From the IMG/VR virus record IMGVR_UViG_3300040801_002669, positions 1 through 60,802 of that record: a stretch of DNA of 60,802 nt. One strand, 5' to 3'. A model generated the notes under the pieces. That model saw nothing but the letters and a program-made list of their open reading frames with translations, was not told the origin of the DNA and ran no database searches. Position 1 is the first letter of the stretch. Every line of letters begins with the position of its first letter. The position numbers and the translations under genes are program-made. Positions 29,579-42,748 of the stretch are shown one piece after another. The DNA comes from a virus.

Positions 29579-29821
29579 ATGGCAAGGGAGTTCGATACAC
29601 TGGGAGAGCTGCTCAAGGCACGGGGGGTGAACCTGACCAACTTCGGCAAGAGCATGGGCTGGACTCAGCCCACCACCTCGATGAAGCTCAACCGCAACCG
29701 CGCGTGGTCGATCGACGAGTACGAGCTCGCGCTCGAGCGGCTCCAGCGGCGCGGCATCCGCATCTCGCGCAAGGACATGCTCCGGATGATCTCGAGGAGG
29801 CCAGACGATGGTGACGCGTGA
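29579..29821 (+). CDS. Helix-turn-helix DNA-binding protein
   Basis: 80 residues; ATG behind AAAGGAG. Residues ~7-55 read L-G-E-L-L-K-A-R-G-V-N-L-T-N-F-G-K-S-M-G-W-T-Q-P-T-T-S-M-K-L-N, an XRE/Cro-like helix-turn-helix, followed by a helical tail. It is the only clear small DNA-binding regulator seen in the early module, so it is a candidate for binding the ATCAC-N5-GTGAT operators. It overlaps the exonuclease gene by 14 bases. Confidence 0.65.
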   Translation: MAREFDTLGELLKARGVNLTNFGKSMGWTQPTTSMKLNRNRAWSIDEYELALERLQRRGIRISRKDMLRMISRRPDDGDA

Positions 29822-30752
29822 GTTCCTGGAGGAGCGGGCCACTGGCATCGGCGGATCGGACGCGCCGATCATCCTCGGCTACTCGAAGTGGTCCTCGCAA
29901 CTGCAACTCTGGGCGCAGAAGGTCCGGGCCCTCGAAGGCGACATCGACCCCCCGGGGGATGATGAAAAGGAAGCCGAGGAACTCCGGTGGGGGCGCCTGA
30001 TCGAACCTCTGCTCGTGAAGCAGTTCGGCCGCGAGACTGGGCGCCCGGTGCGGCACGGCGACCTCTTCGCGCGCCACCCCGAGATCCACTGGCTCATCGG
30101 CCATGCCGACGGCGCGCAGGAGCTCATCGTCGCGCCGAAGAAGAAGATCGTCGGCCCGCCGTCGGCCCTGATCGAGTGCAAGAACGTCTCGCGGTGGCTC
30201 TGGGAGGACTGGCTTGAGGACGCGCCGCTGCCGGTGAAGATCCAGGGGCAGCACTACCTCGCTGCCTTCGACCTCGAGATCGTCACAGCGGTCGCCCTCA
30301 TCGGCGGCAACCGGCTCCTCTACTACGACGTCGAGCGCAACCAGAAGTTCATCGACGCCATGCTCGAGGCCGAGGAGCGTTTCTGGGCGCGGGTCGTCAG
30401 CGACAACCCGCCGCCGGCTACCGCGGCCGACCACAAGTTCCTGAACATGCTCGTGAAGGAGGCACCGGGCACGACCGTCCAGATGCCGAGCGAGGCGCTC
30501 GACTTCCACGATGAGCTGGCGGGGGTCAAAAACGAGATCGACAAGATCAAGACGATGCTGTCCCCCCTCGAAGAGAAGCAGAAAGACCTGGAGGCGAAGA
30601 TCAAGCAACAGATGGGCGACGCCTCGGAGGCGACACTGCCGGATGGCTCGAGCTACACCTTCAAGACCACGAAGCGCAAGGGCTTCACGGTCGAGCCGAC
30701 GGAGTTCAGGACGCTCCGGTACAAGAAAGCGAGGAACCATGCGGACAACTGA
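29808..30752 (+). CDS. YqaJ-type viral recombinase / exonuclease
   Basis: 314 residues. Degrades one strand from double-stranded ends to supply single strands to the annealing protein. Signature: G-I-G-G-S-D-A-P-I-I-L-G-Y-S-K-W (residues ~13-28), G-H-A-D-G, A-L-I-E-C-K-N-V (catalytic Glu-x-Lys) and I-Q-G-Q-H-Y-L-A. The C-terminal third is a charged coiled coil (ELAGVKNEIDKIKTMLSPLE), common in phage members. Paired with RecT one gene downstream. Confidence 0.9.
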   Translation: MVTREFLEERATGIGGSDAPIILGYSKWSSQLQLWAQKVRALEGDIDPPGDDEKEAEELRWGRLIEPLLVKQFGRETGRPVRHGDLFARHPEIHWLIGHADGAQELIVAPKKKIVGPPSALIECKNVSRWLWEDWLEDAPLPVKIQGQHYLAAFDLEIVTAVALIGGNRLLYYDVERNQKFIDAMLEAEERFWARVVSDNPPPATAADHKFLNMLVKEAPGTTVQMPSEALDFHDELAGVKNEIDKIKTMLSPLEEKQKDLEAKIKQQMGDASEATLPDGSSYTFKTTKRKGFTVEPTEFRTLRYKKARNHADN

Positions 30753-31209
30753 GGAGATCGTCAACAGGATGAACATGGCCGTCGATGGCGACGCGTTCGG
30801 CTTCGAGTGGCTCGAGTACACCCGAGCCATCCCGAAGGCCGAGATCGTGAAGCTCGCCGATGGCCTCATCAAGGAGGACGCCGACCTCAGCGACTGGGAG
30901 CCGGACCTCCTGACCGAAGAGCAGATCCGCGAGCAGTGCGTCGCCTACATGCCGTTCGCGTGGGACAAGGCCTGCTCGTGCCGGGGCCTCAGCGCGCTCC
31001 GCAGCATGTCCCACTACCGCGCGTGGCTCTGGCTGCTCGGCGAGGACGGCTTCGACGACATCTCCCACTTCGAGTTCTACGGGAAGGACCACCTTGTCCG
31101 GATCTGCGAGTTCCTCGGGCTGGACCCAGCCGAATGGGACGACGGCATCCGGGTCAACTCCGATGAGGAGTACTACGACGCCCTGGAGAAGCAGGAAAGG
31201 AGTGAATGA
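30739..31209 (+). CDS. Hypothetical protein between exonuclease and RecT
   Basis: 156 residues; overlaps the exonuclease stop by 14 bases and the RecT start by four. Acidic alpha-helical sequence (MNMAVDGDAFGFEWLEYTRA ... YRAWLWLLGEDGFDDISHFEFYGKDHLVRICEFLGL). No family recognised; its place inside the recombination operon suggests an accessory role. Confidence 0.7.
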   Translation: MRTTEEIVNRMNMAVDGDAFGFEWLEYTRAIPKAEIVKLADGLIKEDADLSDWEPDLLTEEQIREQCVAYMPFAWDKACSCRGLSALRSMSHYRAWLWLLGEDGFDDISHFEFYGKDHLVRICEFLGLDPAEWDDGIRVNSDEEYYDALEKQERSE

Positions 31210-32216
31210 TGGGGAGCGCGATCATCACGATGAAGGAACTCAGGACGGACCTCGAGAAGCTCAAGCCGCAGTTCGCCATGGCGCTGCCGCCGAGCTTCGA
31301 CGCCGGCCGGATGGTCCGGATGTGCGTCACGGCGGTCCAGAGCAACCCGGCCCTGCTCGAATGCACCCGCGACTCGCTCTACGGAGCCATGGTCACGGCG
31401 GCGCAGCTCGGCCTCTACCCCGACGTCAGCGTCCTGGGCCACGCCTACTTCGTGCCCTACCGCGACCACAAGCGCGGCGTCCGGGTCTGCACGTTCATCG
31501 CCGGCTACAAGGGGCTCATCGACCTCGCTCGCCGGTCCGGGCACGTCACCTCGATCATGGCCTACCCGGTCTTCGAGGGCGACCAGTTCGACTGGGCCTA
31601 CGGAACGCAGCCGTTCATCACCCACAAGCCGTCCAACGAGAGCAAGGACGGCCGGGACATCACCCACGTCTACGCCCTCGCCAACATGCGCGGCGAGAAC
31701 CGGCCGCAGTTCGTGGTGATGTCCAAGGAGGAGGTGGACGCCATCCGGAAGCGGTCCCCCGGGCGCAACGCCGGACCGTGGGTCGAGCACTACGAGCAGA
31801 TGGCCCTCAAGACCGCCATCCGGCGCCTGTGCAAGTACCTGCCGCTCTCGAGCCAGCTCCAGCACGCCATCTCGCTCGACGAGGCGGCGGACAGCGGCAT
31901 CCCGCAGAACCTCGGAAGCGCCGTTGACCTCGATGCCATGGAGAACGAGGACATCGTCGATGCCGAGATCGTCGATCCGATGGACGACGCCAAGGACTCG
32001 CTGGACGAGGCCCTCGAAGAGATGAGCGGCAGCGGCAACGAGCCGACCGAGTACGAGAAGCTCTGCATCCAAGCGATGGAGATCCTCGGCGACGACGTCT
32101 GGCGCACGAAGCTCGCCGAGATCAAGGCGAGCGTGAAGGCCCAGTCCAAGCCGCCCGAGGAGTCGAAGAAGGCCATGATCGTCGCCATCAAGAAGGCGAT
32201 CAAGGAAGGGAGGTAG
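31206..32216 (+). CDS. RecT-family single-strand annealing protein
   Basis: 336 residues. Residues ~40-220 show the RecT pattern: R-M-V-R-M-C-V-T-A-V-Q-S-N-P-A-L-L-E-C, S-L-Y-G-A-M-V-T-A-A-Q-L-G-L-Y-P, A-Y-F-V-P-Y, F-I-A-G-Y-K-G-L-I-D-L-A-R-R and M-A-L-K-T-A-I-R-R-L-C-K-Y-L-P. The C-terminal part is acidic then helical (KAMIVAIKKAIKEG). Works with the YqaJ-type nuclease in recombination-dependent replication. Confidence 0.9.
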   Translation: MMGSAIITMKELRTDLEKLKPQFAMALPPSFDAGRMVRMCVTAVQSNPALLECTRDSLYGAMVTAAQLGLYPDVSVLGHAYFVPYRDHKRGVRVCTFIAGYKGLIDLARRSGHVTSIMAYPVFEGDQFDWAYGTQPFITHKPSNESKDGRDITHVYALANMRGENRPQFVVMSKEEVDAIRKRSPGRNAGPWVEHYEQMALKTAIRRLCKYLPLSSQLQHAISLDEAADSGIPQNLGSAVDLDAMENEDIVDAEIVDPMDDAKDSLDEALEEMSGSGNEPTEYEKLCIQAMEILGDDVWRTKLAEIKASVKAQSKPPEESKKAMIVAIKKAIKEGR

Positions 32217-32276
32217 CGCCATGGCCGCGGCGGCTCGCGCTGACCATCAACCTACAGACCGCGTGGACGGGTTGAT

Positions 32277-32477
32277 GTGAGCCGCCGCGGCCCTTCATTC
32301 AACCGCAGACCAATGCCGCTCAAGCTCTGCGAGTGGTGCCGGAAGCCGCTCATCAGGAAGCGCGGCGAGAAGAGCAAGCTCTTCATCGTCCGGCGGTTCT
32401 GCGACGTGAAGTGCATGGCGAAGGCGAGAGAGATGGAGAAGAAAATAGCGAAAAACGTAAAAAGGAAACTCGATTGA
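32277..32477 (+). CDS. Small basic zinc-finger protein
   Basis: 66 residues from GTG 32277. C-E-W-C (~18-21) and C-D-V-K-C (~42-46) form a short zinc finger; the ends are basic (REMEKKIAKNVKRKLD). The following promoter begins inside its last codons. Function unknown. Confidence 0.6.
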   Translation: MSRRGPSFNRRPMPLKLCEWCRKPLIRKRGEKSKLFIVRRFCDVKCMAKAREMEKKIAKNVKRKLD

Positions 32478-32502
32478 CATCTCACATCGTAAGCGGTACT
32501 CT
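32474..32502 (+). promoter_or_regulatory. Promoter for the replication gene
   Basis: TTGACA, a 17-base spacer (TCTCACATCGTAAGCGG) and TACTCT, at about 32475-32503, about 20 bases before the GTG of the replisome-organiser-like gene. Unlike P1-P3 it lacks the ATCAC-N5-GTGAT repeat, so it may be controlled differently. Confidence 0.6.
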
Positions 32503-32524
32503 TGCTGTTGTAAGGAGAACAGCC

Positions 32525-33562
32525 GTGTACATTAAACTTTTCAGGGACATCCTCGATTCAACAATCTGGATGGAACCGGACTATGTGGTGCGTGTCTGGC
32601 TCACGTTTCTCCTACTGTCCAACCAGGAGGGTTTCGTTGAGATCCCAATCCCGGCTCTCGCTCAAAGGGCCCGCGTTACCCTTGACGAGGCGGCCCAGGC
32701 TATCGAGAGGCTCGAGAAGCCGGACCCATACAGCCGGACATCCGCCGAGAATGGAGCGAGGATCGTTCGCGTCACGGACGAGAAGACGCTCTGGCACATC
32801 ACGAACCGTGAAAAGTATGCCGCCATGAGATCAATCAACCAGAAGCGGGCATACCAACGCGAGTACATGAGGGATTACCGGAAGCGTAAGGCCGAAATGC
32901 CAACATGTGAAGAAAAAATTCACGGGTTGGCCCAGAAGAGAGAAGATAGAAGAGAGGAGAGTACATCTCATACGAGTGCTCCGCACTCGATGGATGATGT
33001 TTTTCAGACCAAGTTCTGGGATCGCTGGCCGACCGGCCGGAAGGTTGACCGCAAGAAGTGCGAACGGTTCTTCAACCGGCTCCCGAAGAAGGATCAGAAG
33101 GCGGCGACCGGGCCCGCGCTCGACGCGTGGCTCGAGGACTTCGCCCAGCGTGACCGCCAGTACGTCCCGCACCCGTACACATGGCTCAACAACCGCCGCT
33201 GGGAGGACGACGTCCCGACCCGCGGCAAGAAGAAACACTCTGGGCACGTTGACGCCGAGTCGTCAGACGAGATGAAGAGTTCTCACGCCGAGTCGTGCGA
33301 CGCGGCGATCGCGAAGATCGACCACCTCGTCGTCGCGCTGCCGACGCCTCTTGATGGGCATCTCCTCGACCGGCTCCTTTGGCTCAAGAACGAGGTGCAG
33401 TCCGCACGAGAGATGCTCCCTGCCGAGGGTTACGAGAAGATCGTCGCCGCCGAGGACTTCGTGCTCGACTGGGCCGCTGACGAGTACGAGCTCGACGCGA
33501 AGACCACGACCGAGCGGAGGCTGCTCGCGAGGAAGAAGATCGGGTTGCCGGTTCTCTACTGA
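32525..33562 (+). CDS. Replication initiation / replisome-organiser-like protein
   Basis: 345 residues from a GTG behind AAGGAG. N-terminal Y-I-K-L-F-R-D-I-L-D-S-T-I-W ... V-V-R-V-W-L-T-F-L-L-L-S-N-Q-E-G-F-V, followed by a winged-helix pattern (IPALAQRARVTLDEAAQAIERL) is typical of phage replication initiators that recruit a helicase. A basic linker (QREYMRDYRKRKAE) and a segment W-D-R-W-P-T-G-R-K-V-D-R-K-K-C follow, then a helical C-terminus. The first 450 bases are AT-richer than the neighbours. Confidence 0.7.
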   Translation: MYIKLFRDILDSTIWMEPDYVVRVWLTFLLLSNQEGFVEIPIPALAQRARVTLDEAAQAIERLEKPDPYSRTSAENGARIVRVTDEKTLWHITNREKYAAMRSINQKRAYQREYMRDYRKRKAEMPTCEEKIHGLAQKREDRREESTSHTSAPHSMDDVFQTKFWDRWPTGRKVDRKKCERFFNRLPKKDQKAATGPALDAWLEDFAQRDRQYVPHPYTWLNNRRWEDDVPTRGKKKHSGHVDAESSDEMKSSHAESCDAAIAKIDHLVVALPTPLDGHLLDRLLWLKNEVQSAREMLPAEGYEKIVAAEDFVLDWAADEYELDAKTTTERRLLARKKIGLPVLY

Positions 33563-33584
33563 CCGGCCGAAAGGGGATACCGAG

Positions 33585-33971
33585 ATGCGATCCAACGTCC
33601 ATCACAGGCTCAAGGTCGGGCGCGTGAGAACCGGCAAGTACACCTCAGACGACTCGTTCGGGCTCTGCGGCATGTTCCACATCAGGTCGTCCAAGACCGG
33701 TCGCCTACTCAAGGTCATCGCCTCGACGGCTCTTGGCGGTCCAGGTGACTGGGAGCACGTCAGCGTCTCCGTTGACGGCCAGACCGGCCGCTTCTCCAAG
33801 TGCCCGATCTGGGAGGAGATGTGCGAGGTCAAGAGTCTCTTCTGGGAGGACGAGGAGACGGTGATCCAGTTCCATCCGAAGGCCAGCGAGAGCGTCAACA
33901 TCGGCGAGGTGCTCCACCTCTGGAAGCTCTGCGGCCACGAGCACATCCTGCCGCCGAAGTTCTATGTGTGA
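33585..33971 (+). CDS. Conserved phage protein (DUF7694-like)
   Basis: 128 residues; ATG seven bases behind GAAAGGGGA. G-M-F-H-I-R-S, W-E-H-V-S-V-S, C-P-I-W-E-E-M-C-E-V-K-S-L-F-W-E-D-E-E-T-V-I-Q-F-H and L-H-L-W-K match the small phage family annotated DUF7694 as I remember it. Function not established. Confidence 0.75.
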   Translation: MRSNVHHRLKVGRVRTGKYTSDDSFGLCGMFHIRSSKTGRLLKVIASTALGGPGDWEHVSVSVDGQTGRFSKCPIWEEMCEVKSLFWEDEETVIQFHPKASESVNIGEVLHLWKLCGHEHILPPKFYV

Positions 33972-33979
33972 GGTGACAG

Positions 33980-34186
33980 ATGGCCCGCAAGACGACGAAG
34001 CCGAAGAAGCACCCGGACACATGCCCCGACTGCGGCAAGCCACAGTTGACGGTGTACATGAACAGTGGCGGAACGGTCGCCGTGGACCCGACGCAGATCA
34101 CGGTGATCTTCTGCAACCAGGCCATGGCCGGCGGGTCGCGCCTCGGCGCGTACCTCGAGCACGACTGCAAACGGGGGAAGCGATGA
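33980..34186 (+). CDS. Small basic zinc-ribbon protein
   Basis: 68 residues. N-terminal Lys-rich stretch (RKTTKPKKHPDTCPDCGKP), C-P-D-C, then beta strands with D-P-T-Q-I-T-V-I-F-C and a final H-D-C. Probable one-finger protein. Overlaps the next start by four bases. Confidence 0.65.
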   Translation: MARKTTKPKKHPDTCPDCGKPQLTVYMNSGGTVAVDPTQITVIFCNQAMAGGSRLGAYLEHDCKRGKR

Positions 34187-34485
34187 GCCAATCCGGCAAC
34201 CAGTACGTCTACACCATCGAGAAGAATGGGACGCTGACCAACGTCTTCAAGAACCGTCGCTCCATGAAGCGGGCGATCGCCTCGATCATCGAGCATCACC
34301 GAGCCGACGGGTGGGAGATCGTCCAGGACCACACGATCCCCGAGGTCTACCTCAACCTGCGGGCGAAGGGCGTGTCGAACGGGATCTACCGGAACCTGCT
34401 CCTCACGTTCACGAAGTACAACCAGGCCCTGCGGGCGCAGTTCCTAGTGAAGTGCTGGGTGATCAAGAGCGAGAGGATCACCTAA
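34183..34485 (+). CDS. Hypothetical early protein
   Basis: 100 residues; ATGA overlap with the previous stop. Basic, mixed alpha/beta (YVYTIEKNGTLTNVFKNRRS ... NLLLTFTKYNQALRAQFLVKC). No family recognised. Confidence 0.65.
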   Translation: MSQSGNQYVYTIEKNGTLTNVFKNRRSMKRAIASIIEHHRADGWEIVQDHTIPEVYLNLRAKGVSNGIYRNLLLTFTKYNQALRAQFLVKCWVIKSERIT

Positions 34486-34679
34486 TGAACTGCCCGAAAT
34501 GCACCCGAGGCACTCTGCTCCTCATCCGCGAGCTTGATGCCCCGGACTTCAAAGTCAACGTGACGAAGTGCGATCTCTGCGGGATCAAAGTCATCTACCC
34601 GCAAACGCCCGATGGTGCTCGTCGCATCGAGTGGTGGTGGCAGAAGCAGTGCGCCCGCATCGAGAGGGGAGAGGCTTGA
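34485..34679 (+). CDS. Small zinc-ribbon protein
   Basis: 64 residues; ATG shares a base with the previous TAA. C-P-K-C (3-6) and C-D-L-C (~29-32) form a zinc ribbon; ends with W-W-W-Q-K-Q-C. One of several zinc-ribbon genes in tandem here. Confidence 0.65.
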   Translation: MNCPKCTRGTLLLIRELDAPDFKVNVTKCDLCGIKVIYPQTPDGARRIEWWWQKQCARIERGEA

Positions 34680-34891
34680 TGAGAACCGTGACCTGCGACA
34701 TCTGTGGAGCGACGACCCGATCGAATACGAAGTGGGCGACGACGGTCATCGAGGACTACCACCTCCACTCCCTGACGATGGAGCCGCTCGTGATCGAGAG
34801 CCGCACGATCGACCTCTGCGCGGATTGCACCGCGGATCTCCTCGGGCTGCTCAAGGACAGGGTGAAGAAGTGCGGGGAGGTCGCGCCATGA
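34679..34891 (+). CDS. Small zinc-ribbon protein
   Basis: 70 residues; TGATG junction with the preceding gene. C-D-I-C (6-9) and C-A-D-C (~47-50) with intervening beta strands. Function unknown. Confidence 0.65.
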   Translation: MRTVTCDICGATTRSNTKWATTVIEDYHLHSLTMEPLVIESRTIDLCADCTADLLGLLKDRVKKCGEVAP

Positions 34892-35292
34892 GCGACGACA
34901 TCAACTTGTATTCGACCCACGTCTACATCGACTGCGAACGATGCGGGGCGGACATTGAGATTTCGGTGTCGGACGATTGGATGTTCCTCGCTCCGGTAAC
35001 CGGGCCCGTGCTTTGCTCGAACTGCCGCGAGATCGACAGGCTCAAGGAAGAACTCGCCACAGCCCGAGGAGAGCAGAAGGCGTGTCCCGGGTGTGGGCGG
35101 CTCTGGATGCGCGACAAGCCGTGCCCGTGGTGCCGCATCGCCGAGCTTGAGGCAACCCTCAAGGCGATCATGAGCTACGACGAGCAGCCGGGGTCGATGT
35201 CGGGCCCAAGCGAGTTCGAGCTTCGGAACCAGATCCGGAACATGAAGAGGATCGCCAAAGCGGCCCTCGTCGCCACGCGGGAGGGGATGTGA
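34888..35292 (+). CDS. Double zinc-ribbon protein with coiled coil
   Basis: 134 residues. C-E-R-C and C-S-N-C (first ribbon), a short helix (EIDRLKEELATARGEQK), C-P-G-C and C-P-W-C (second ribbon), and a C-terminal helical part. Arrangement suggests a dimer with metal sites. Overlaps both neighbours by four bases. Confidence 0.7.
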   Translation: MSDDINLYSTHVYIDCERCGADIEISVSDDWMFLAPVTGPVLCSNCREIDRLKEELATARGEQKACPGCGRLWMRDKPCPWCRIAELEATLKAIMSYDEQPGSMSGPSEFELRNQIRNMKRIAKAALVATREGM

Positions 35293-35765
35293 ACATCGAG
35301 ATCAGGCTCGAGGGCGAACCGCACGCCCAGCAACGCCACCGGGCCCGGAGGGTCGGCTCGGTCGGCATCCGGACCTACGACAACCCGAGGTCGGCCGACT
35401 GGAAGAAGCGGGCCCGCCTCGAGATGCTCTCCCAGCTCCCGATTGATGGGCCGAAACCCGTATTTCGTTCTGGGGTTCCGCTTCGGGTGATGATCACGGC
35501 GCACTTCGAGTGTCCGAAGGGCGAGCGCCGGAAGCGCCAGCCGCGGCTCTTCCGGTGGCACACCAAGAAGTCCGACGCCGACAACATCGCGAAGGCGGTG
35601 CTCGACGCGGCGAACGGGATCCTCTGGCACGATGACGCCCAGATCGCGCAGCTCCTCGTGACCAAGATGGTGGCGGCGCAGGACACGGCGCCGTGCGTTC
35701 TCGTCGATGTCAGGGAGCTTCCGGATCAACCGCGCTACGTCAGCGGCGAATACCGATTCCCGTGA
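35289..35765 (+). CDS. rusA: RusA-like Holliday junction resolvase carrying a repeat insertion
   Basis: 158 residues from GTG 35289 (GTGA overlap). K-K-S-D-A-D-N-I-A-K-A-V-L-D-A-A-N-G-I-L-W-H-D-D-A-Q-I is the RusA catalytic core (Asp residues). N-terminal P-H-A-Q-Q-R-H-R is also typical. Between them, residues ~51-62 (PIDGPKPVFRSG) are encoded by copy R5 of the dispersed repeat, in frame. The active site is intact, so the enzyme is probably functional. Confidence 0.85.
   Translation: MNIEIRLEGEPHAQQRHRARRVGSVGIRTYDNPRSADWKKRARLEMLSQLPIDGPKPVFRSGVPLRVMITAHFECPKGERRKRQPRLFRWHTKKSDADNIAKAVLDAANGILWHDDAQIAQLLVTKMVAAQDTAPCVLVDVRELPDQPRYVSGEYRFP
35441..35474 (+). repeat. Dispersed bipartite repeat, copy R5, inside rusA
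   Basis: GATTGATG, 13 bases, ATTTCGTTCTGGG. Box spacing identical to intergenic copies; one base differs in box 2. It is read in frame in the resolvase gene. Confidence 0.75.
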
Positions 35766-35776
35766 GAGGAGAGAAG

Positions 35777-35947
35777 ATGGCGGTTTCAGTCGTCCACATC
35801 AGGAACACCCTCATCCGAAGGGTGACGCTGGTCATTGTCTTCGTTCCGGTCGTGGTGATCGGGACGCTGATCCACCTCATCAAGCAGACCTGGAAGTGCG
35901 CGGTTGACGCCGAGAAAGCGTTCGAGTCAGCCTGGAGGGGGTACTGA
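35777..35947 (+). CDS. Small single-span membrane protein
   Basis: 56 residues; ATG behind GAGGAGAG. Hydrophobic segment (VTLVIVFVPVVVIGTLIHLI) flanked by Arg at the N-side and a charged C-terminal helix. Function unknown. Confidence 0.65.
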   Translation: MAVSVVHIRNTLIRRVTLVIVFVPVVVIGTLIHLIKQTWKCAVDAEKAFESAWRGY

Positions 35948-36270
35948 TGTGCCTGGGATGCTGGGAGAGCTTCGGCAGCTCGAAGATCATGAACGAGAAG
36001 GTCGCAGCGGCGGTGCTCCTCATCCGTCGCGTCTACCACTTCAACTGTGCCGGGGGCGGGCTGCACGTTCAGCTCGACGACTGGAACATCGAGGACGTGC
36101 AGTTCAGCCCAGAGGCGAGGGAATGGCTGATCGCGTTCCAGGAGCACCAGAAGTTCGAGGACGCCGCCAAGCAAGCCGAGCTCGAGTGCTTCGACGCCAT
36201 GGCGAAGATGACTCTTGAGGAGCGGAACTCGGCGCTCTACTTCGAGTTCTACGCGAAAGATGAGTCCTGA
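35947..36270 (+). CDS. Conserved phage protein with CLGCW motif
   Basis: 107 residues; TGATG junction. M-C-L-G-C-W-E-S, then V-Y-H-F-N-C-A-G-G-G-L-H-V-Q-L-D-D-W-N-I-E-D resembles a small phage family that I have seen in diverse siphoviruses ('G-G-x-L-H-I-V-x-D-D-W-N'). Its end contains the start codons of both overlapping methyltransferase-locus frames. Function unknown. Confidence 0.7.
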   Translation: MCLGCWESFGSSKIMNEKVAAAVLLIRRVYHFNCAGGGLHVQLDDWNIEDVQFSPEAREWLIAFQEHQKFEDAAKQAELECFDAMAKMTLEERNSALYFEFYAKDES

Positions 36271-37654
36271 TGTGGCTCTACGTGCCATCTCACTGTTCTC
36301 CGGAGTCGGGGCCCTCGACCTCGCCGTCAGAGTCGCTCTGCCAGGAGTTCGCTCGCTCGTGTACGTGGAAAGGGAAGTCCAAGCCGCCGCAGTTCTGGCA
36401 GCGCGCGCTCAAGCCGGATGGCTGGATGACGCTCCTGTCTGGAGTGACGTCTGCACCTTCGACGCTCGCCCGTTCCGCGGAGAGGTGGATCTCGTCCACG
36501 GTGGAGTCCCTTGCCAGCCGTACTCGCTCGCGGGCGAGCGCAGGGGGAACGAAGACGAGCGGGCGCTCTCGCCCGAGTTCGTCAGAATCGTGGCCGAGTG
36601 TCGCCCCTCCCTGGTCTTCATCGAGAACGTCCCAGCTTTCGTTGCCAATGGATGGTTTCGACCTTTCGGAGAGGAACTATGCCGACTGGGTTACGAACTC
36701 GAAGATCCGCTCTTCATTGGCGCGGGAGACGTTGGCGCGCCGCATCTCCGTGAGCGCGTCTTCATCCTGGCGCACTCCGAACGTGCCGAACGGTGGCCGA
36801 TCGTGCGAAGGGAACTTGACCGGGAAGGGCCCCGGGGGAGAAAAACGGCAGGTCGAGCTCGAGATGCAGGCCCGCCACTGGCAGGCACCGAAGTCTCCGG
36901 ACGGCGGGAACAAGAGCCGCGGCGGCGACCGGAAGGACGAGCCGCTGCTCGAGGGCCAGGCCAGGAACTGGCCGACGCCGAGGACGATCACGGGCGGCGC
37001 GGAGAGCCGCGAGCGGAAGCAGGAGCTGGGCCGGACCGAAAGCGGCGGCGGCGATCTGCAAGCGGCGGTGAGGAACTGGCCCACCCCAACGGCGAAGGAC
37101 ATGGACTCGTCCGGGGCGACAGCGAAAGAGGGATGGGCGAAGGGGTCCGGCAGACACGAGGGTACGACGCTGACGGACGCCGTCAGGACGTGGCCGACTC
37201 CGAGTGCTCGAGACTGGAAGAGCGGCAAAGCCTCAGAGGAGACGATGGAGGCGAACGCGCGACCGTTGAACGAGGTGGTCGAGCACTGGGAGATGGAGGA
37301 CAGGGGGAGGTGGGGGGAGAACCAGTACCCGACACCGTCGGCGACTCCCTACGGGAGCGCCCAGAACGAGGGGCAGATCGAGCACATCCGCCCGTCTCGT
37401 GGAACCCCGAGCCTTACCCAGTGGGCCGCATCTTCCCCCCAGGCCCACGCGATTTCGACGAGTGGCGAGACGTCCTCGGAAGAGCCCCCCACCTCGGACC
37501 GTCGGTTGAACCCGGCTTTCGATGCGTGGTTGATGGGCTTGCCGTGGTGGTGGACGAGGCCCGAACGGATCAACTGCGATCCTGCGGTAATGCGGTCGTT
37601 CCTCTGCAAGCTGCGTGGGCTCTTGCAGAGCTTCTGCGAAGGGTAATCGAATGA
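36260..37654 (+). CDS. DNA (cytosine-5)-methyltransferase
   Basis: 464 residues from ATG 36260. Motif I A-I-S-L-F-S-G-V-G-A-L-D-L-A (9-22), motif IV G-G-V-P-C-Q-P-Y-S with catalytic Cys85, motif VI F-I-E-N-V (120-124), motif VIII L-R-E-R-V-F-I-L (163-170) and C-terminal motif X-like S-C-G-N-A-V-V-P-L-Q-A-A-W are all present. Residues ~170-360, where the target recognition region lies, contain recurring L-A-[HDG]-x-E segments. Likely self-protection or epigenetic marking. Almost the whole gene is overlapped by another long frame. Confidence 0.93.
   Translation: MSPDVALRAISLFSGVGALDLAVRVALPGVRSLVYVEREVQAAAVLAARAQAGWLDDAPVWSDVCTFDARPFRGEVDLVHGGVPCQPYSLAGERRGNEDERALSPEFVRIVAECRPSLVFIENVPAFVANGWFRPFGEELCRLGYELEDPLFIGAGDVGAPHLRERVFILAHSERAERWPIVRRELDREGPRGRKTAGRARDAGPPLAGTEVSGRREQEPRRRPEGRAAARGPGQELADAEDDHGRRGEPRAEAGAGPDRKRRRRSASGGEELAHPNGEGHGLVRGDSERGMGEGVRQTRGYDADGRRQDVADSECSRLEERQSLRGDDGGERATVERGGRALGDGGQGEVGGEPVPDTVGDSLRERPERGADRAHPPVSWNPEPYPVGRIFPPGPRDFDEWRDVLGRAPHLGPSVEPGFRCVVDGLAVVVDEARTDQLRSCGNAVVPLQAAWALAELLRRVIE
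36270..37646 (+). CDS. WPTP-repeat protein overlapping the methyltransferase gene in +1 frame
   Basis: 458 residues from ATG 36270, ten bases after the methyltransferase ATG; it forms a TGATG junction with the preceding gene and ends eight bases before the methyltransferase stop. Its N-terminus (S-C-T-W-K-G-K-S-K-P-P-Q-F-W-Q-R-A-L-K ... G-W-M-T-L-L-S-G) is protein-like. Repeats W-P-T-P occur at residues 234, 270 and 308 and Y-P-T-P at 353, with degenerate W-R-T-P and W-Q-A-P before them. The end has L-N-P-A-F-D-A-W-L-M-G-L-P, similar to proteins I associate with phage methyltransferase loci. Function unknown. Confidence 0.7.
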   Translation: MWLYVPSHCSPESGPSTSPSESLCQEFARSCTWKGKSKPPQFWQRALKPDGWMTLLSGVTSAPSTLARSAERWISSTVESLASRTRSRASAGGTKTSGRSRPSSSESWPSVAPPWSSSRTSQLSLPMDGFDLSERNYADWVTNSKIRSSLARETLARRISVSASSSWRTPNVPNGGRSCEGNLTGKGPGGEKRQVELEMQARHWQAPKSPDGGNKSRGGDRKDEPLLEGQARNWPTPRTITGGAESRERKQELGRTESGGGDLQAAVRNWPTPTAKDMDSSGATAKEGWAKGSGRHEGTTLTDAVRTWPTPSARDWKSGKASEETMEANARPLNEVVEHWEMEDRGRWGENQYPTPSATPYGSAQNEGQIEHIRPSRGTPSLTQWAASSPQAHAISTSGETSSEEPPTSDRRLNPAFDAWLMGLPWWWTRPERINCDPAVMRSFLCKLRGLLQSFCEG

Positions 37655-38391
37655 CGGATGGTCTGCACATCGTTGCGCTCTCTGGCGGCAAGGACTCGAC
37701 GGCGCTCGCCCTACGGTTGGCAGAAGTCGAGCCCCGCGACTACGTCTACATCTGCACGCCGACCGGCGACGAACTTCCGGACATGATCGCGCACTGGGAG
37801 CGGCTTGAGGAGATGCTCGGTCAGCCGATCCGCCGGCTCACGGGGGATCACGACCTCCACGGTCTGATCGAGCACTTCAAGGCCTTGCCAACCTGGAGAA
37901 TGAGGTGGTGTACCAGGATCCTGAAAATCCAAGCTGCCGAGGCCTTCTACCTGAGGCACCCCGGCAGCGTAGCCTACGTCGGCCTCCGGGCTGATGAACC
38001 GGAGCGCGATGGCGGCATCTACGACGAGGCTGTCATCAAGCAGCGATACCCGCTCAGAGAGTGGGGGTGGACCGTCGCCGACGTCTGGCAGTATCTCGAT
38101 TGTCGCGGGGTGAAGATGCCGAGGCGGACGGATTGTGCGCGCTGCTACGACCAGAGGCTGTCGGAATGGTGGGAACTCTGGAAGGAGCATCCAGAGATCT
38201 ACGCCCACGCAGAAGCGCAGGAGGCCAAATTCGGGCACACCTTCCGATCCGACAGGCGGGACACATGGCCCGCTGGGCTGAAGGAACTCAGAGAGAGGTT
38301 CGAGTCTGGAGATGTCCCGCGCGGGGCCGAAATCCAGCTTTCACTGTTTGGCGTCGAGCGCGAGCGCGCCTGTCGGGTGTGCTCATTGTGA
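37651..38391 (+). CDS. PAPS-reductase-like / PP-loop ATPase
   Basis: 246 residues from ATG 37651 (ATGA overlap with the methyltransferase stop). PP-loop S-G-G-K-D-S-T (11-17), then T-P-T-G-D-E, R-W-C-T-R-I-L-K, and G-L-R-A-D-E, the usual pattern of phage PAPS-reductase-family proteins. C-terminal Cys residues (C-A-R-C-Y and C-R-V-C) suggest an iron-sulphur or zinc site. The family includes sulphur-transfer enzymes such as DndC; whether this one modifies DNA or a metabolite is not known. Coupling to the methyltransferase suggests a nucleic-acid role. Confidence 0.8.
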   Translation: MTDGLHIVALSGGKDSTALALRLAEVEPRDYVYICTPTGDELPDMIAHWERLEEMLGQPIRRLTGDHDLHGLIEHFKALPTWRMRWCTRILKIQAAEAFYLRHPGSVAYVGLRADEPERDGGIYDEAVIKQRYPLREWGWTVADVWQYLDCRGVKMPRRTDCARCYDQRLSEWWELWKEHPEIYAHAEAQEAKFGHTFRSDRRDTWPAGLKELRERFESGDVPRGAEIQLSLFGVERERACRVCSL

Positions 38392-38426
38392 ACCGGCCGT
38401 CAACCGATCGAAACAAGGAGGAAGAG

Positions 38427-38822
38427 ATGGCAACGAAGAAGACCGCCCAGAAGCCCGAAGAGAAAGCCCAGATCACCCGGCGCCGGGAGACGCGGAACCT
38501 CAAGACCGTGCTGACCGCGGAGGAGCTCGCGTCCGCGGCCGAGGAGCTCGCCCAATCGACGCAAGCTGCCGACCGGCTCGAGGAGGAGAAGAAGTCGATG
38601 GTGTCGGAGTTCAAGGCCCGCATCGAGGAGGCGGTCGCCCGCCGGAACAAGTTCGCCAACATCGTGTCCACGAAGAGCGAGTACCGCCAGGTCGATTGCG
38701 AGATCGTCCTGGACTACGACACGAAGCGCGTGACCGTCACCCGGCTCGACAGCGGCGAGGTCGTCACGGAGCGCGCGATGTTCGAGGAGGAACTCCAGCG
38801 CAAGCTCCCGATGAGCGAGTGA
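38427..38822 (+). CDS. Coiled-coil phage protein
   Basis: 131 residues; ATG behind AAGGAGG. Lys/Ala-rich start, then a long charged helix (LTAEELASAAEELAQSTQAADRLEEEKKSMVSEFKARIEE) and a C-terminal beta portion (YRQVDCEIVLDYDTKRVTVTRLDSGEVV). This is a common small phage early protein type, often near recombination genes; function not established. The -35 of promoter P3 overlaps its stop codon. Confidence 0.7.
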   Translation: MATKKTAQKPEEKAQITRRRETRNLKTVLTAEELASAAEELAQSTQAADRLEEEKKSMVSEFKARIEEAVARRNKFANIVSTKSEYRQVDCEIVLDYDTKRVTVTRLDSGEVVTERAMFEEELQRKLPMSE

Positions 38823-38848
38823 CAGACGATCACATAACGTGATACAAT
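38819..38848 (+). promoter_or_regulatory. Early promoter P3 with internal inverted repeat
   Basis: GTGACA (38819-38824), 18-base spacer, TACAAT (38843-38848). ATCAC-ATAAC-GTGAT (38829-38843) is the same inverted repeat as in P1 and P2. GAAAGGGGA and the ATG at 38873 follow. Confidence 0.8.
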
Positions 38849-38872
38849 GGTAGAAGAGAAAGGGGATAGTCC

Positions 38873-39472
38873 ATGAAGCACATCATCTGGATCGATCTCG
38901 AAACCGGTGGTCTGGACTGTGACAAGTTCCAGATCACGCAGATCGGCGGCATCGTCACGGAGCTGGGCCCGAGCTTCAAGAGGGTCGGCGAGCCGTTCGA
39001 GCGCAAGGTGAAGCTCGTCCCCGGCCGCTACACAGAGGAGGCGCTCAAGGCCCAGAACTTCAGCATCCCGGTCTGGGACGCCGAAGCGGTGACGATCGCC
39101 GACGCCCTCGGCGCGCTCTACAAGTGGGCGGAGCCGTGGGCCGACGAGCGCACGAGCGCCAAGGGCAACACCTACAAGGCCGCGGACGTGGCCGGGTTCA
39201 ACGTCATCTTCGACGCCGACTTCCTGCGCGCGGCCTCGAAGCGCAACGGTGTTTGGCTCCCGCTCGCGACCTGGACGTCCGGGATGCTCGACGTCCTCCA
39301 GCTCGCGAAGTGGACGTGCGCGCTGCATGGCCTCGAGCCGCCGAACTTCCAGCTCCGGTCGCTCTGCAAGTTCTTCGACATCGACGACGCGGCGCTGACG
39401 GCCCACGACGCCCTCGGCGACGTGCTCGCGACGCTCGCCCTGTTCCGGGCCCTCCAGAACTACGAGGCCTAG
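38873..39472 (+). CDS. DEDDh 3'-5' exonuclease
   Basis: 199 residues; first gene under promoter P3, ATG six bases behind GAAAGGGGA. Exo I W-I-D-L-E-T-G-G (6-13), exo II G-F-N-V-I-F-D-A-D-F-L, exo III A-H-D-A-L-G-D-V give the D-E-D-D-h set of the DnaQ/oligoribonuclease superfamily. Likely a stand-alone proofreading or nucleotide-recycling nuclease, since no DNA polymerase is encoded here. Confidence 0.88.
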   Translation: MKHIIWIDLETGGLDCDKFQITQIGGIVTELGPSFKRVGEPFERKVKLVPGRYTEEALKAQNFSIPVWDAEAVTIADALGALYKWAEPWADERTSAKGNTYKAADVAGFNVIFDADFLRAASKRNGVWLPLATWTSGMLDVLQLAKWTCALHGLEPPNFQLRSLCKFFDIDDAALTAHDALGDVLATLALFRALQNYEA

Positions 39473-39474
39473 CG

Positions 39475-39891
39475 ATGGGCTGGAAGATCATCGACGCCTA
39501 CAGCAAGGTCGAGGCGACGCCGTGGGTGTCCATCGGCGTCCACGCCAAGCCGGGTGGGGGCCAGATCAAGATCACGATGTCCCAGACGATCACGGAGCAC
39601 CTCGGTGTCGCCGACGGTGACAGGGTGATGGTCAGCCGGGGCATGGGCGACCATGAGGGGTGGCTCCAGATCCAGAAGTCGCCGTCGTGGTACGAGCACG
39701 GGATGACCCTCAGCAATAGGAAGACCAAGAAGGGGAACCTGTTCTTCCGAACGAACGCGGCGCACTTCGGCATTCGTGGTCGGCATTCGACGAAGAAGAT
39801 CACCACCGACGACGCCGCACTCATCTTGACCTACGACACCGATCTCGCGGAGCCGGCGATCCAGGTTGAGATGCCAGAGGAGATGCGATGA
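39475..39891 (+). CDS. Hypothetical early protein
   Basis: 138 residues. Beta-rich first half with V-S-I-G-V-H-A-K-P-G-G-G-Q-I-K-I-T-M-S and H-L-G-V-A-D-G-D-R-V-M-V; an AbrB-like or small barrel fold is possible. C-terminal basic then acidic. No family recognised. Confidence 0.65.
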   Translation: MGWKIIDAYSKVEATPWVSIGVHAKPGGGQIKITMSQTITEHLGVADGDRVMVSRGMGDHEGWLQIQKSPSWYEHGMTLSNRKTKKGNLFFRTNAAHFGIRGRHSTKKITTDDAALILTYDTDLAEPAIQVEMPEEMR

Positions 39892-40181
39892 GCGACCACG
39901 ACATCAGGCCGCGCCGTGTTGGACAGGACTGGATCTGTGCCACGGAGTGCCCCCAAATGGCCGACCACGACTTTGTCTATTTGAGGTGCGGAATTGATGG
40001 TGAGGCTCGCAGACACGCTGATGCGCCGAAGAGCCAGCCACCGCATCTTTGCCCCCACCACGCCCGCCGCGTCGCCGCCGAGCGGGACAGGCTGCGGGAC
40101 GCCATCCGCACCGCCCTGGACGAGTCCACGACCTACGACGAGGTAGAGGCGCGGCTGATCGGGCTGGTGGAGGAGGAGTGA
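39888..40181 (+). CDS. Hypothetical early protein with scattered Cys/His
   Basis: 97 residues; ATGA overlap with the previous stop. C-A-T-E-C, L-R-C-G and H-L-C-P-H-H may form a metal site; C-terminal helix (ERDRLRDAIRTALDESTTYDEVEARLI). Function unknown. Confidence 0.65.
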   Translation: MSDHDIRPRRVGQDWICATECPQMADHDFVYLRCGIDGEARRHADAPKSQPPHLCPHHARRVAAERDRLRDAIRTALDESTTYDEVEARLIGLVEEE

Positions 40182-40498
40182 TGGACTATCAAGAAGAAGC
40201 CGAGCGGTGGCTTGATCAATGGGGTGGACTCGGCAGCGTCCAGCGACTCACTCGGTGTGGCTATGCCGCCGAGAAGGCCCTCGGTCTTGATGAACACAGC
40301 AACTCCCCGGCTGACGTTAGTGAGCGTATCGACCGCCTCACCGCCGAGAACCACCGGCTGCGTGAGTGGGCGGTGAAGGCACACGGGCTCTGCGGTGGAC
40401 TCCACTACTCACCCGGAGCGATGAACCTTGCTCAATGGGTCGTGGACATCGTGAAGGAATTGCAGTCTACCTACCCCACCGACGAGGAGGTGGGTTGA
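40181..40498 (+). CDS. Hypothetical early protein
   Basis: 105 residues; TGATG junction behind GAGGAGG. Helical, with E-R-W-L-D-Q-W-G-G-L-G-S and H-G-L-C-G-G-L-H-Y-S-P-G-A-M. No family recognised. Confidence 0.65.
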   Translation: MDYQEEAERWLDQWGGLGSVQRLTRCGYAAEKALGLDEHSNSPADVSERIDRLTAENHRLREWAVKAHGLCGGLHYSPGAMNLAQWVVDIVKELQSTYPTDEEVG

Positions 40499-40941
40499 TG
40501 GATCACGACACAGCGGCACGCCTGAGGGCATTCAAGAACAACTGCAACTGCGGCGGCTATGCGAGGGACGGCGAACACCCGCACCTCTCGTGGTGCCAAC
40601 AGTACGAGGAATACGAGGAGTGGTACAAGGCAGTCACAAGCGACGGCTCAACCAAGACACCAAGCGCCCGCATCGCCGAGCTGGAGTCGTCGAACGAGGC
40701 GCTGCGGGAGATTGCAAACGAGCTGAAGGATCAGTCTGCCAAGGATTGTCAGCGCGTCGCCGACTTGGAGGCGCAGCTCGCCCGGGCGATGGAGTGTTCC
40801 AGTCAGACCCGCGCAGCCCTGATGAGTCTGCGCGAGATCGTCCGGCACCGGGCAGACCTCCAGTCGATGGACAAGGTCACGGTTGACTTGGCTGGCAGCG
40901 TCCTGGAGCGGCACGAGTGGATCGACCTGGAGCGGGGCTGA
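40498..40941 (+). CDS. Hypothetical coiled-coil early protein
   Basis: 147 residues; TGATG junction behind GAGGTGG. N-terminal C-N-C-G-G-Y and H-L-S-W-C, then a long coiled coil (ARIAELESSNEALREIANELKD ... VADLEAQLARAME). Function unknown. Confidence 0.65.
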   Translation: MDHDTAARLRAFKNNCNCGGYARDGEHPHLSWCQQYEEYEEWYKAVTSDGSTKTPSARIAELESSNEALREIANELKDQSAKDCQRVADLEAQLARAMECSSQTRAALMSLREIVRHRADLQSMDKVTVDLAGSVLERHEWIDLERG

Positions 40942-40960
40942 TGCGCCAACCGGAGGAACC

Positions 40961-41770
40961 ATGAAGCGAAGACCTCGCATTCTGCGCGTTTTCCCGCGCC
41001 GCACGAGGGCGACCCCGTTCGACGAATTAACAGCATTCGGGCCACCCGGCCTATTCGCAGACGAGTCGGAATTCGACGAGGTTCATGTGTCTGTTACGTT
41101 CTCGTGGGATCTTGAATACGCCAAGCAGCTCTTCGACGCATGGGATTTCTTCGCGCCAGGGCGTGTCCGGATCGGTGGGCCAGCATTCAACGAGCGCAGC
41201 GAGGAGTTTGTTGGAGGCCTTTATATCGCCAACGGCTACACGATTACCAGCCGAGGATGTCCAAGAAAGTGCTGGTTCTGCCGCGTGCCGAAAGTCGAAG
41301 GTGGGATACGCGAACTCGACATCGTGCCAGGGTGGAATGTTCTGGACGACAACATCCTCGCCACGTCTGACGATCATTTCCTGCGTGTTTGCGAGATGCT
41401 CGGAAGGCAGAGGCGCCAAGCCGAGTTCACCGGTGGCCTTGACGCCGAGCTTCTCACTGATTTCCACATCAACCTGCTCTCAAACATCAAGCCAAGGCCA
41501 GTGTGCTTCTTCGCATTCGATCCGGGAGATGAGTTCTGCGCCCTGAAATCGGCCGCGGATCGGATGCTGTCAGCCGGATGGACGACCGCATCAGGACGTC
41601 CGGCTCATTCTCTGAGATGTTACGTGTTGATTGGGCACCCCAGAGACACGCCCGAAGAAGCCGAGGCCCGTCTCGAGCAGATGTTGTCGATTGGGTTCAC
41701 GCCGATGGCGATGCTGTGGAAAAACGAGACGACCGGGTTACCAAAGAGCGACCGGTGGTACGGGCTATAG
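40961..41770 (+). CDS. Radical SAM protein
   Basis: 269 residues; ATG behind CGGAGG. S-R-G-C-P-R-K-C-W-F-C (C-x3-C-x2-C) is the radical SAM iron-sulphur site; F-T-G-G-L-D-A-E-L-L and Y-V-L-I-G-H-P-R-D-T-P-E-E-A-E-A-R-L fit the barrel. The N-terminal part (FPRRTRATPFDELTAFG) is typical of phage radical SAM proteins that resemble B12-binding-type members without the B12 domain. Substrate unknown; it is not a standard QueE. Confidence 0.82.
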   Translation: MKRRPRILRVFPRRTRATPFDELTAFGPPGLFADESEFDEVHVSVTFSWDLEYAKQLFDAWDFFAPGRVRIGGPAFNERSEEFVGGLYIANGYTITSRGCPRKCWFCRVPKVEGGIRELDIVPGWNVLDDNILATSDDHFLRVCEMLGRQRRQAEFTGGLDAELLTDFHINLLSNIKPRPVCFFAFDPGDEFCALKSAADRMLSAGWTTASGRPAHSLRCYVLIGHPRDTPEEAEARLEQMLSIGFTPMAMLWKNETTGLPKSDRWYGL

Positions 41771-41839
41771 AAACGATGGGCGCGGCCGATGTTGATTCAC
41801 AGCAGGAATGCAACACCATGACGTGCTATCATCAACCTG

Positions 41840-41899
41840 CGCGTCGGGTATCTCCTGGAGGGTTTGTTATCCCCTTTCTCTTTCAGGAAGCCCGACGCG
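41840..41899 (+). ncRNA. Structured leader upstream of the membrane/queC-like pair
   Basis: CGCGTCGGG (41840-41848) pairs perfectly with CCCGACGCG (41891-41899); TCCTG/CAGGA can extend it inward, leaving a pyrimidine-rich inner loop with CCCCTTTCTCTTT. The 9-bp stem ends 9 bases before AAGGAGG of the next gene. Lies in a 150-base gene-free gap. A riboswitch or attenuator is possible; it does not match the preQ1-I consensus I know. Confidence 0.5.
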
Positions 41900-41921
41900 A
41901 ATTTCGTTAAGGAGGACGGCG

Positions 41922-42068
41922 ATGCATAGACGGCTGGTACACAGCCCGACCGGCCTGACGTGGAGGGCGACGCTCCCGGGGTACGGGTACACATGGTGGC
42001 AGTGGGTCGCGCTCGCCCTCGGGGCGGCGCTCGTCGTCTGGCTGGTTGTCGCGAGCGGAGGATCATGA
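41922..42068 (+). CDS. Small single-span membrane protein
   Basis: 48 residues; ATG behind AAGGAGG. C-terminal membrane helix (WWQWVALALGAALVVWLVVAS). Overlaps the queC-like start. Function unknown. Confidence 0.6.
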   Translation: MHRRLVHSPTGLTWRATLPGYGYTWWQWVALALGAALVVWLVVASGGS

Positions 42069-42748
42069 TGAGCAAGCGAGCCGTCGTTCTGTTGTCCGGG
42101 GGCCTAAATTCGTTTGTCGCCGCGAAGTTCGTTCAGACCGTCGGGGTCGAGATCGTCGAGGCGATCTGCTTCAACTACGGCCAGGAGCACTGCGACGAGA
42201 TCGACTACGCCGCCGAGCTCGCGGCGCGTCTCGACGTTCCGTTCTCGTCCATCCAGGCGTCGATGCTCTGGGAGATGACCGACAGGCTGACCCACGAGCA
42301 GGCCGCGCACATGACGCAGGTTGGCCTCAACAACTCGTTCTGGTTCGGGCGCAGGCTCGCGATCCACCTCCTCGGGGCCTCTCGGGCGCAAGCCCTGAAC
42401 GCCGGCATGGTCGTCAGCGGCAGCACGATGGCGCGCGTGTCGGACGGTGGTGCCGCGATCGACTTCCTCCAGAAGGCAATCGACGCCGAGCACTTCGACG
42501 TCAAGATCGAGGTGCCGTTCATCGGGACCGAGCTCGGGCACGCCTTCAAGGTCGCTCACGCCCTCGACATCTTCGACGAGGCCGTCGCCATGACCTACGA
42601 CTGCCTCCACGGGAGCCATGACCAGCACGACTGGGGGCGCGGCTGCGGCGAGTGCGAAGGGTGCCTACGGCGCGCCGAGGGCCACCGGGTGATCACCGGC
42701 CACCTCCTCGAGTCGTTCAACGCGAAGCGCGCGGAGGTTCCGTCATGA
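42068..42748 (+). CDS. queC: QueC-like 7-cyano-7-deazaguanine synthase homologue
   Basis: 226 residues from ATG 42068 (an ATG three bases upstream is the alternative). QueC makes preQ0 from carboxydeazaguanine. Seen: PP-loop L-L-S-G-G-L-N-S (Asp of S-G-G-x-D-S replaced by Asn), F-N-Y-G-Q-E-H, and the C-terminal zinc motif C-G-E-C-E-G-C-L-R-R. PreQ0 feeds queuosine or 7-deazaguanine DNA modification in phages, but no QueD, QueE, FolE or DpdA was recognised, so it may use host intermediates or have another substrate. Confidence 0.8.
   Translation: MSKRAVVLLSGGLNSFVAAKFVQTVGVEIVEAICFNYGQEHCDEIDYAAELAARLDVPFSSIQASMLWEMTDRLTHEQAAHMTQVGLNNSFWFGRRLAIHLLGASRAQALNAGMVVSGSTMARVSDGGAAIDFLQKAIDAEHFDVKIEVPFIGTELGHAFKVAHALDIFDEAVAMTYDCLHGSHDQHDWGRGCGECEGCLRRAEGHRVITGHLLESFNAKRAEVPS

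Follow-up and report, generated by a model that had tools for sequence, protein, structure and literature searches.

The window, by which we mean the whole stretch of DNA analysed here, is a virus record of 60.8 kb that contains two long overlapping frames on one strand, referred to below as alpha (frame 0) and beta (frame +1; Table 1). A preliminary description of this DNA had reported two such frames with ends eight bases apart, and translation bore this out: the alpha ATG at 36260 opens 464 codons closed by a TGA ending at 37654, and the beta ATG at 36270, 10 nt further 3', opens 458 codons closed by a TAA ending at 37646. The TGATG junction described at the same place is real, being formed by the stop codon of the upstream ORF (36268–36270) and the beta ATG (36270–36272). 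No family match below E = 0.1 was found for this 107-aa upstream ORF.

Table 1. Coordinates of the overlapping frames and of their features in the window
Feature	Position	Strand	Description	Basis
alpha	36260–37654	+	Putative catalytic chain, C5-cytosine methyltransferase, 464 aa; motifs I–VIII and X	PF00145 E=6e-28, residues 8–175 only; phrog_363 E=9e-50; alignment with four relatives
beta	36270–37646	+	+1-frame chain, 458 aa; recognition-like modules and motif IX	phrog_1008 E=8e-13; alignments with relatives; hhalign against fused Filuzino methyltransferase E=2.8e-12
Start region	36260–36272	+	alpha ATG 36260–36262, beta ATG 36270–36272	
Upstream ORF	35947–36270	+	107 aa; stop overlaps beta start	
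alpha motif I	36296–36310	+	FSGVG	Read from translation
alpha motif IV	36509–36517	+	Catalytic P-C-Q, residues 84–86	Translation, alignment
alpha motif VI	36623–36631	+	E-N-V, residues 122–124	Translation, alignment
alpha motif VIII	36734–36757	+	GAPHLRER, residues 159–166	Translation, alignment
beta W-P-T-P modules	36768–37337	+	Residues 167, 204, 234, 270, 308, 353	
beta motif IX	37500–37556	+	RRLNPAFDAWLMGLPWWWT, residues 411–429	Same bases as alpha FRCVVDGLA
alpha motif X	37571–37624	+	QLRSCGNAVVPLQAAWAL, residues 438–455	phrog_1008 positions 293–322 matched from alpha frame

Alpha carries the C5 methyltransferase (PF00145) motifs I, IV (PCQ), VI (ENV) and VIII. Motif IX was searched for by reading the alpha translation of the window and was not found there, and the C-terminal motif of beta, LNPxFVEWLMGxPxGWT, located 3' of the W-P-T-P modules, was read as motif IX. 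Motifs IX and X do not both lie in the chain that has motifs I–VIII; alpha includes motif X, but motif IX is encoded in +1. As for the repeats, W-P-T-P had been reported at beta residues 234, 270, 308 and 353 along with two weaker copies. The first three positions hold, residue 353 begins Y-P-T-P instead, and the weaker copies are WRTP at 167 and WQAP at 204. They coincide with a repeat of alpha on the same DNA, as had been claimed, the L/V-A-D repeat being the alpha-frame shadow of the beta W-P-T-P modules.

In the window gene by itself, an open +1 frame is moderately unlikely: it holds no stop, compared to a mean of 4.0 after synonymous permutation (P = 0.0034) or 3.05 expected with codon usage taken from the window (P = 0.045). 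Chance is not excluded at P = 0.003–0.045, and a single sequence therefore leaves the second gene unproven; whether the second frame is real was decided by comparison with relatives. A search of IMG/VR with beta gave relatives, one of them aligned across beta residues 1–456. An alignment query gave 192 confirmed candidates in IMG/VR and 160 from bacterial genomes, of which 80 each were retained. Searches of plasmids and E. coli gave few relatives. In the first relatives (two IMG/VR contigs, Acidovorax phage Alfacinha1 and Synechococcus phage JY39), both frames were open over their full length at 42–44% (frame 0) and 31–36% (+1) identity to the window, and beta had MWL at its N-terminus and LNPxFxxWLMG at its C-terminus. 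From a query with alpha only, the best-scoring 80 further viral loci were taken, and all 80 had an overlapping ORF in the identical +1 relation. Because these were the best-scoring loci, this count does not give the share among all phage C5 methyltransferases.

Stop codons were then compared with expectation. The +1 frame of 76 non-redundant loci fetched with alpha contained 81 stops, compared to 415 expected when synonymous codons were permuted within each gene and 621 expected from the codon usage of neighbouring genes. The third frame was not depleted in the same loci (1135 stops vs. 1016–1040 expected), which indicates that the depletion is frame-specific. Most of the leftover +1 stops were 5' of the beta start or close to the beta end; away from the ends, only 2 were observed across motifs I–VIII (193 expected) and 3 after motif VIII (92 expected; 78 loci). 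Frequent +1 stops in homologous methyltransferase loci, which had been named as the outcome that would refute dual coding, were thus looked for and not seen.

Substitutions at the three codon positions were used to locate where selection acts along the gene. In this overlap, a change at an alpha third position falls on a beta second position, and a change at an alpha first position on a beta third position. Substitutions were counted in 39 independent pairs with 70–95% identity. Across motifs I–VIII, alpha positions 1/2/3 received 0.245/0.133/0.622 of the substitutions, indistinguishable from the flanking genes (0.244/0.142/0.614). After motif VIII the fractions were 0.528/0.205/0.267, the pattern of DNA evolving as beta codons. 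Finer bins showed that this beta signature extends from motif VIII as far as the region of motif IX, that substitution is slow in both frames immediately 5' of motif X, and that motif X evolves as alpha codons again (0.33/0.07/0.61). Purifying selection on +1 beyond what the methyltransferase frame explains, the second outcome on which the earlier claim had been made to depend, was thus present, but only after motif VIII. Since the window has no close relative, these measurements pertain to the family and not to the window's own lineage.

The absence of a beta signature in motifs I–VIII bears on the beta N-terminus, which had been called protein-like (CTWKGKSKPP..., GWMTLLSG). This claim was not supported: the frame is open there, but amino-acid constraint was not detectable. 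Because the substitutions look single-frame, beta must be kept readable over its N-terminal ~165 residues, whose sequence is nearly free. Resemblances among beta N-termini were rejected as evidence, the substitutions there being those of an ordinary single-frame gene. A comparison of +1 amino-acid identity with permuted codons in distant pairs was also set aside; the +1 frame exceeded the null most, and the third frame exceeded it as well.

Single-chain methyltransferases of the streptococcal type were examined as controls. After motif VIII their substitution fractions were 0.243/0.191/0.566, without a frame switch, and their +1 stops were not depleted (125 vs. 118 expected). Within motifs I–VIII they showed a partial deficit, 18 stops vs. 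41 expected, so that a roughly two-fold +1 deficit in this part can arise without dual coding; in the dual loci it is about hundred-fold. Long stop-free +1 stretches in motifs I–VIII were also noted in ordinary streptococcal phage methyltransferases with an in-frame motif IX (L257, L258 and L251), and in phage P0094 a +1 CDS is annotated within that stretch. The partial deficit of ordinary methyltransferases and the modest P values of the window alone might be taken as a hint for a shadow frame, in which chance and codon bias leave +1 open in a GC-rich methyltransferase gene and the +1 similarity is inherited from the real frame. However, a passive shadow cannot produce the codon-position switch, which the single-chain controls lack, and the +1 stop depletion persists at GC as low as 46%. 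We find this explanation scarcely credible; the codon-position switch and the stop depletion in relatives uphold the earlier statement that the second frame is not a random shadow. The suggestion of an old, conserved dual-coding arrangement likewise gains support from the homologue stops together with the codon-position pattern. On this comparative evidence, we conclude that the dual coding is real, conserved and widespread in hundreds of phages and prophages.

We asked how the methyltransferase motifs are allocated between the chains in the family. A search with the motif IX family pattern R-x-L-T/N-P-x-x-x-x-x-L-M/Q-G-F/W-P found the pattern in beta, together with motif X in alpha, in 179 relatives (121 + 58 loci); none of the loci searched by pattern had it in alpha. 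PF00145 matched alpha alone with 98.6 bits over profile positions 2–164, and a chimera made of alpha motifs I–VIII, the beta middle part and the alpha end with 113.0 bits over positions 2–313. The match was not extended in the same chimera test on two compact relatives (L205 and L230). Alpha is matched by PHROG 363 and beta by PHROG 1008. The two, each labelled DNA methyltransferase, are separate library families whose output nowhere records two frames of one locus. The single protein of mycobacteriophage Filuzino matches PHROG 363 and then PHROG 1008, in this order, and the beta profile aligned with this protein over the recognition region and motif IX (E = 2.8e-12).

No Pfam domain of its own was found for beta, and PDB sequence searches with beta profiles returned only weak, chance-like matches (MS2 coat, dynein regulatory complex). 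AlphaFold2 gave low-confidence models for the window beta alone (120-sequence alignment, pLDDT 55) and for the beta of a compact relative (54 sequences, pLDDT 59); no fold search was done with these models because the pLDDT values were too low. The lack of a Pfam domain and of a credible match among solved structures is what would be expected if beta were a functional accessory protein unrelated to catalysis, for example a host-restriction inhibitor, that overlaps the methyltransferase by happenstance. Such a protein, however, would not be expected to have the canonical motif IX, which the pattern search found in no alpha, nor to align with a fused methyltransferase over the recognition region, and we regard this possibility as very unlikely. 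We consider it highly probable that the locus encodes both chains of one two-polypeptide C5-cytosine methyltransferase, a reading made from sequence without expression or activity data. Beta is probably the recognition subunit of an M.EcoHK31I-like enzyme, its role in recognition being inferred.

The start codons of both frames lie within 7 nt of each other in most relatives, and in 123 of 210 loci the alpha start codon is 4 nt 5' of the beta start (as in GTGAATG). In the window, the position of the beta ATG on the preceding stop codon would allow coupled re-initiation. That both chains share one ribosome landing zone is inferred from this arrangement; a Shine-Dalgarno-like sequence was present in 124 of 150 cases in a rough count that was not calibrated against background. 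The main rival to two separate chains is programmed ribosomal frameshifting, in which a +1 slip after motif VIII would yield a single fused enzyme and beta would never be made separately. Such a slip would produce the observed pattern, in which selection acts on frame 0 up to motif VIII and on +1 from there on, and fused single-frame versions of the enzyme exist. However, a downstream slip would have no need of the stop-free +1 frame through motifs I–VIII, and the slipped product would lack motif X, yet motif X is conserved in frame 0. No frame-0 stop was found after motif VIII, compared to ~800 expected if only beta mattered, although the way in which the compared region was delimited accounts for part of this result. 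The conservation of adjacent twin start codons also speaks against a slip; a slippery-site scan is not among the evidence. From these sequence patterns frameshifting appears disfavoured, and we judge it unlikely.

The two-chain reading can be compared with known enzymes. For M.EcoHK31I, which recognises YGGCCR, a published summary places motifs I–VIII and X in the larger subunit, motif IX in the smaller subunit, and the recognition domain in the large chain (PMC3404938). Alpha resembles this large chain in having motifs I–VIII and X without motif IX, and the window shares the hallmark of this type, a second chain that is encoded by the same DNA in a different frame and carries motif IX. In contrast to the published recognition domain in alpha, the region after motif VIII evolves in the family as beta codons (recognition has not been assayed). 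The smaller M.EcoHK31I chain is likewise encoded inside the larger gene in another frame and is ~176 aa long; beta of the window has 458 aa, begins and ends alongside alpha, and contains W-P-T-P modules, a difference drawn without direct sequence comparison. In M.AquI, motifs I–VIII are in one chain and motifs IX and X in the other, small chain (PMC3404938). M.AquI is similar in having two chains, and the staggered Streptomyces phage relatives Samy and Vash resemble it, whereas alpha of the window contains motif X and overlaps beta almost entirely. The M.AquI-type arrangement, in which the second chain holds both motif IX and motif X, does not apply to the window; some relatives carry motif X in the beta ORF. 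Filuzino gp68 and Leonard gp5 have the same order of motifs I–VIII, P-T-P repeats, IX and X, but in one frame, and their +1 stops are undepleted (11 vs. 11.0 and 11 vs. 12.7 expected). An out-of-frame HNH insertion in the methylase of phage ShiLan (PMC11855218) was considered as a parallel and set aside as a different phenomenon. By analogy, the two-chain principle is most likely the one already known from M.EcoHK31I, here with a larger, co-extensive beta. No description of the phage-wide spread and near-complete overlap was found in the open-licence literature.

The relatives differ in layout. Near-complete overlap is found in the window, most loci, Acinetobacter phage ABMM1 and Pseudomonas phages PS-1 and phPA-G. 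Nested or staggered frames occur in Paenibacillus phage Bloom, whose nested beta is annotated (BLOOM_57), in Porphyromonas and Nodularia phages, and in Samy and Vash, which have two staggered ORFs with motif X within the beta ORF. Filuzino and Gordonia phage Leonard have the fused, one-frame layout. In both of these phages (L006 2140–3750 and L256 1117–2676, respectively), P-T-P repeats are kept in +1, 5' of the in-frame repeats. The sequences suggest that the fused genes arose by a frame change inside the repeat region, the direction of change being inferred.

In Alfacinha1, JY39 and phPA-G, the annotated CDS is beta and the catalytic alpha is unannotated. The beta-frame product of Alfacinha1 (gp46, L005 2485–3618) is named a cytosine-specific methyltransferase, that of JY39 (L008 2921–4036) is annotated as a hypothetical protein, and that of phPA-G (L252 1142–1870) as CDS0044. 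The prophage copy in E. coli PCP07014 (L259 1500–2261) is annotated as a pseudogene with an internal stop; it has one alpha stop and one +1 stop at nearly the same place, and the remainder of both frames is readable, including motif IX in +1. At L055 (600–2200), alpha and beta pieces are spread over three frames, reflecting either a decayed copy or assembly errors. Around the methyltransferase, the window (29808–42745) encodes YqaJ, RecT, RusA, an RNase_T exonuclease and a weak radical-SAM match, as well as a PAPS-reductase-like protein (37651–38388) and QueC (41960–42745), which suggests a possible 7-deazaguanine pathway adjoining the methyltransferase. PAPS-reductase-like genes are near the methyltransferase also in Alfacinha1 and JY39.

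In the mechanism we propose, alpha would supply the cofactor-binding and catalytic motifs I–VIII plus the C-terminal motif X, and beta the target-recognition region, with its W-P-T-P modules, and motif IX. Both chains would be translated from one mRNA by way of start codons a few bases apart; their expression, and the requirement of both for methylation, are inferred. The chains would then associate, as an inferred heterodimer, with the beta recognition region and motif IX completing the alpha fold. The overlap had been suggested to act in the target-recognition region; the dual coding stood, and we refine the suggestion by reading beta as the half that alpha lacks, comprising the recognition region and motif IX. 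The assembled enzyme would methylate phage DNA at a specific site, probably shielding it from host restriction, a protection that is likewise inferred. Assignment of the W-P-T-P modules as recognition elements is also an inference; the number of P-T-P copies per beta, 0–8 across 244 loci, is consistent with swappable recognition modules like those of the multispecific Bacillus phage methyltransferases.

A broader proposal is that a sizeable fraction of phage C5 methyltransferases are dual-coded heterodimers with the specificity half overprinted over nearly the full length, swappable W-P-T-P modules, and fused and staggered relatives; we put it forward tentatively, as something that may hold but that we lean slightly against. 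If it is true, phages would change methylation specificity in one frame while the overlapping alpha region tolerates the change, and the phage enzymes with fused or staggered layouts would be related by evolution to this same frame-split gene. Gene callers usually keep one of two long overlapping frames on the same strand, and such loci mostly appear in databases with just one of the two proteins, so that many phage methyltransferases may be half-annotated, in which case expressing the one annotated chain would yield an inactive protein. With its hundreds of homologues, the locus is also an extensive natural collection of gene pairs that overlap almost completely, in which the selection acting on either frame can be told apart along the gene; the origin, splitting and fusion of overlapping genes can be tested on it directly.
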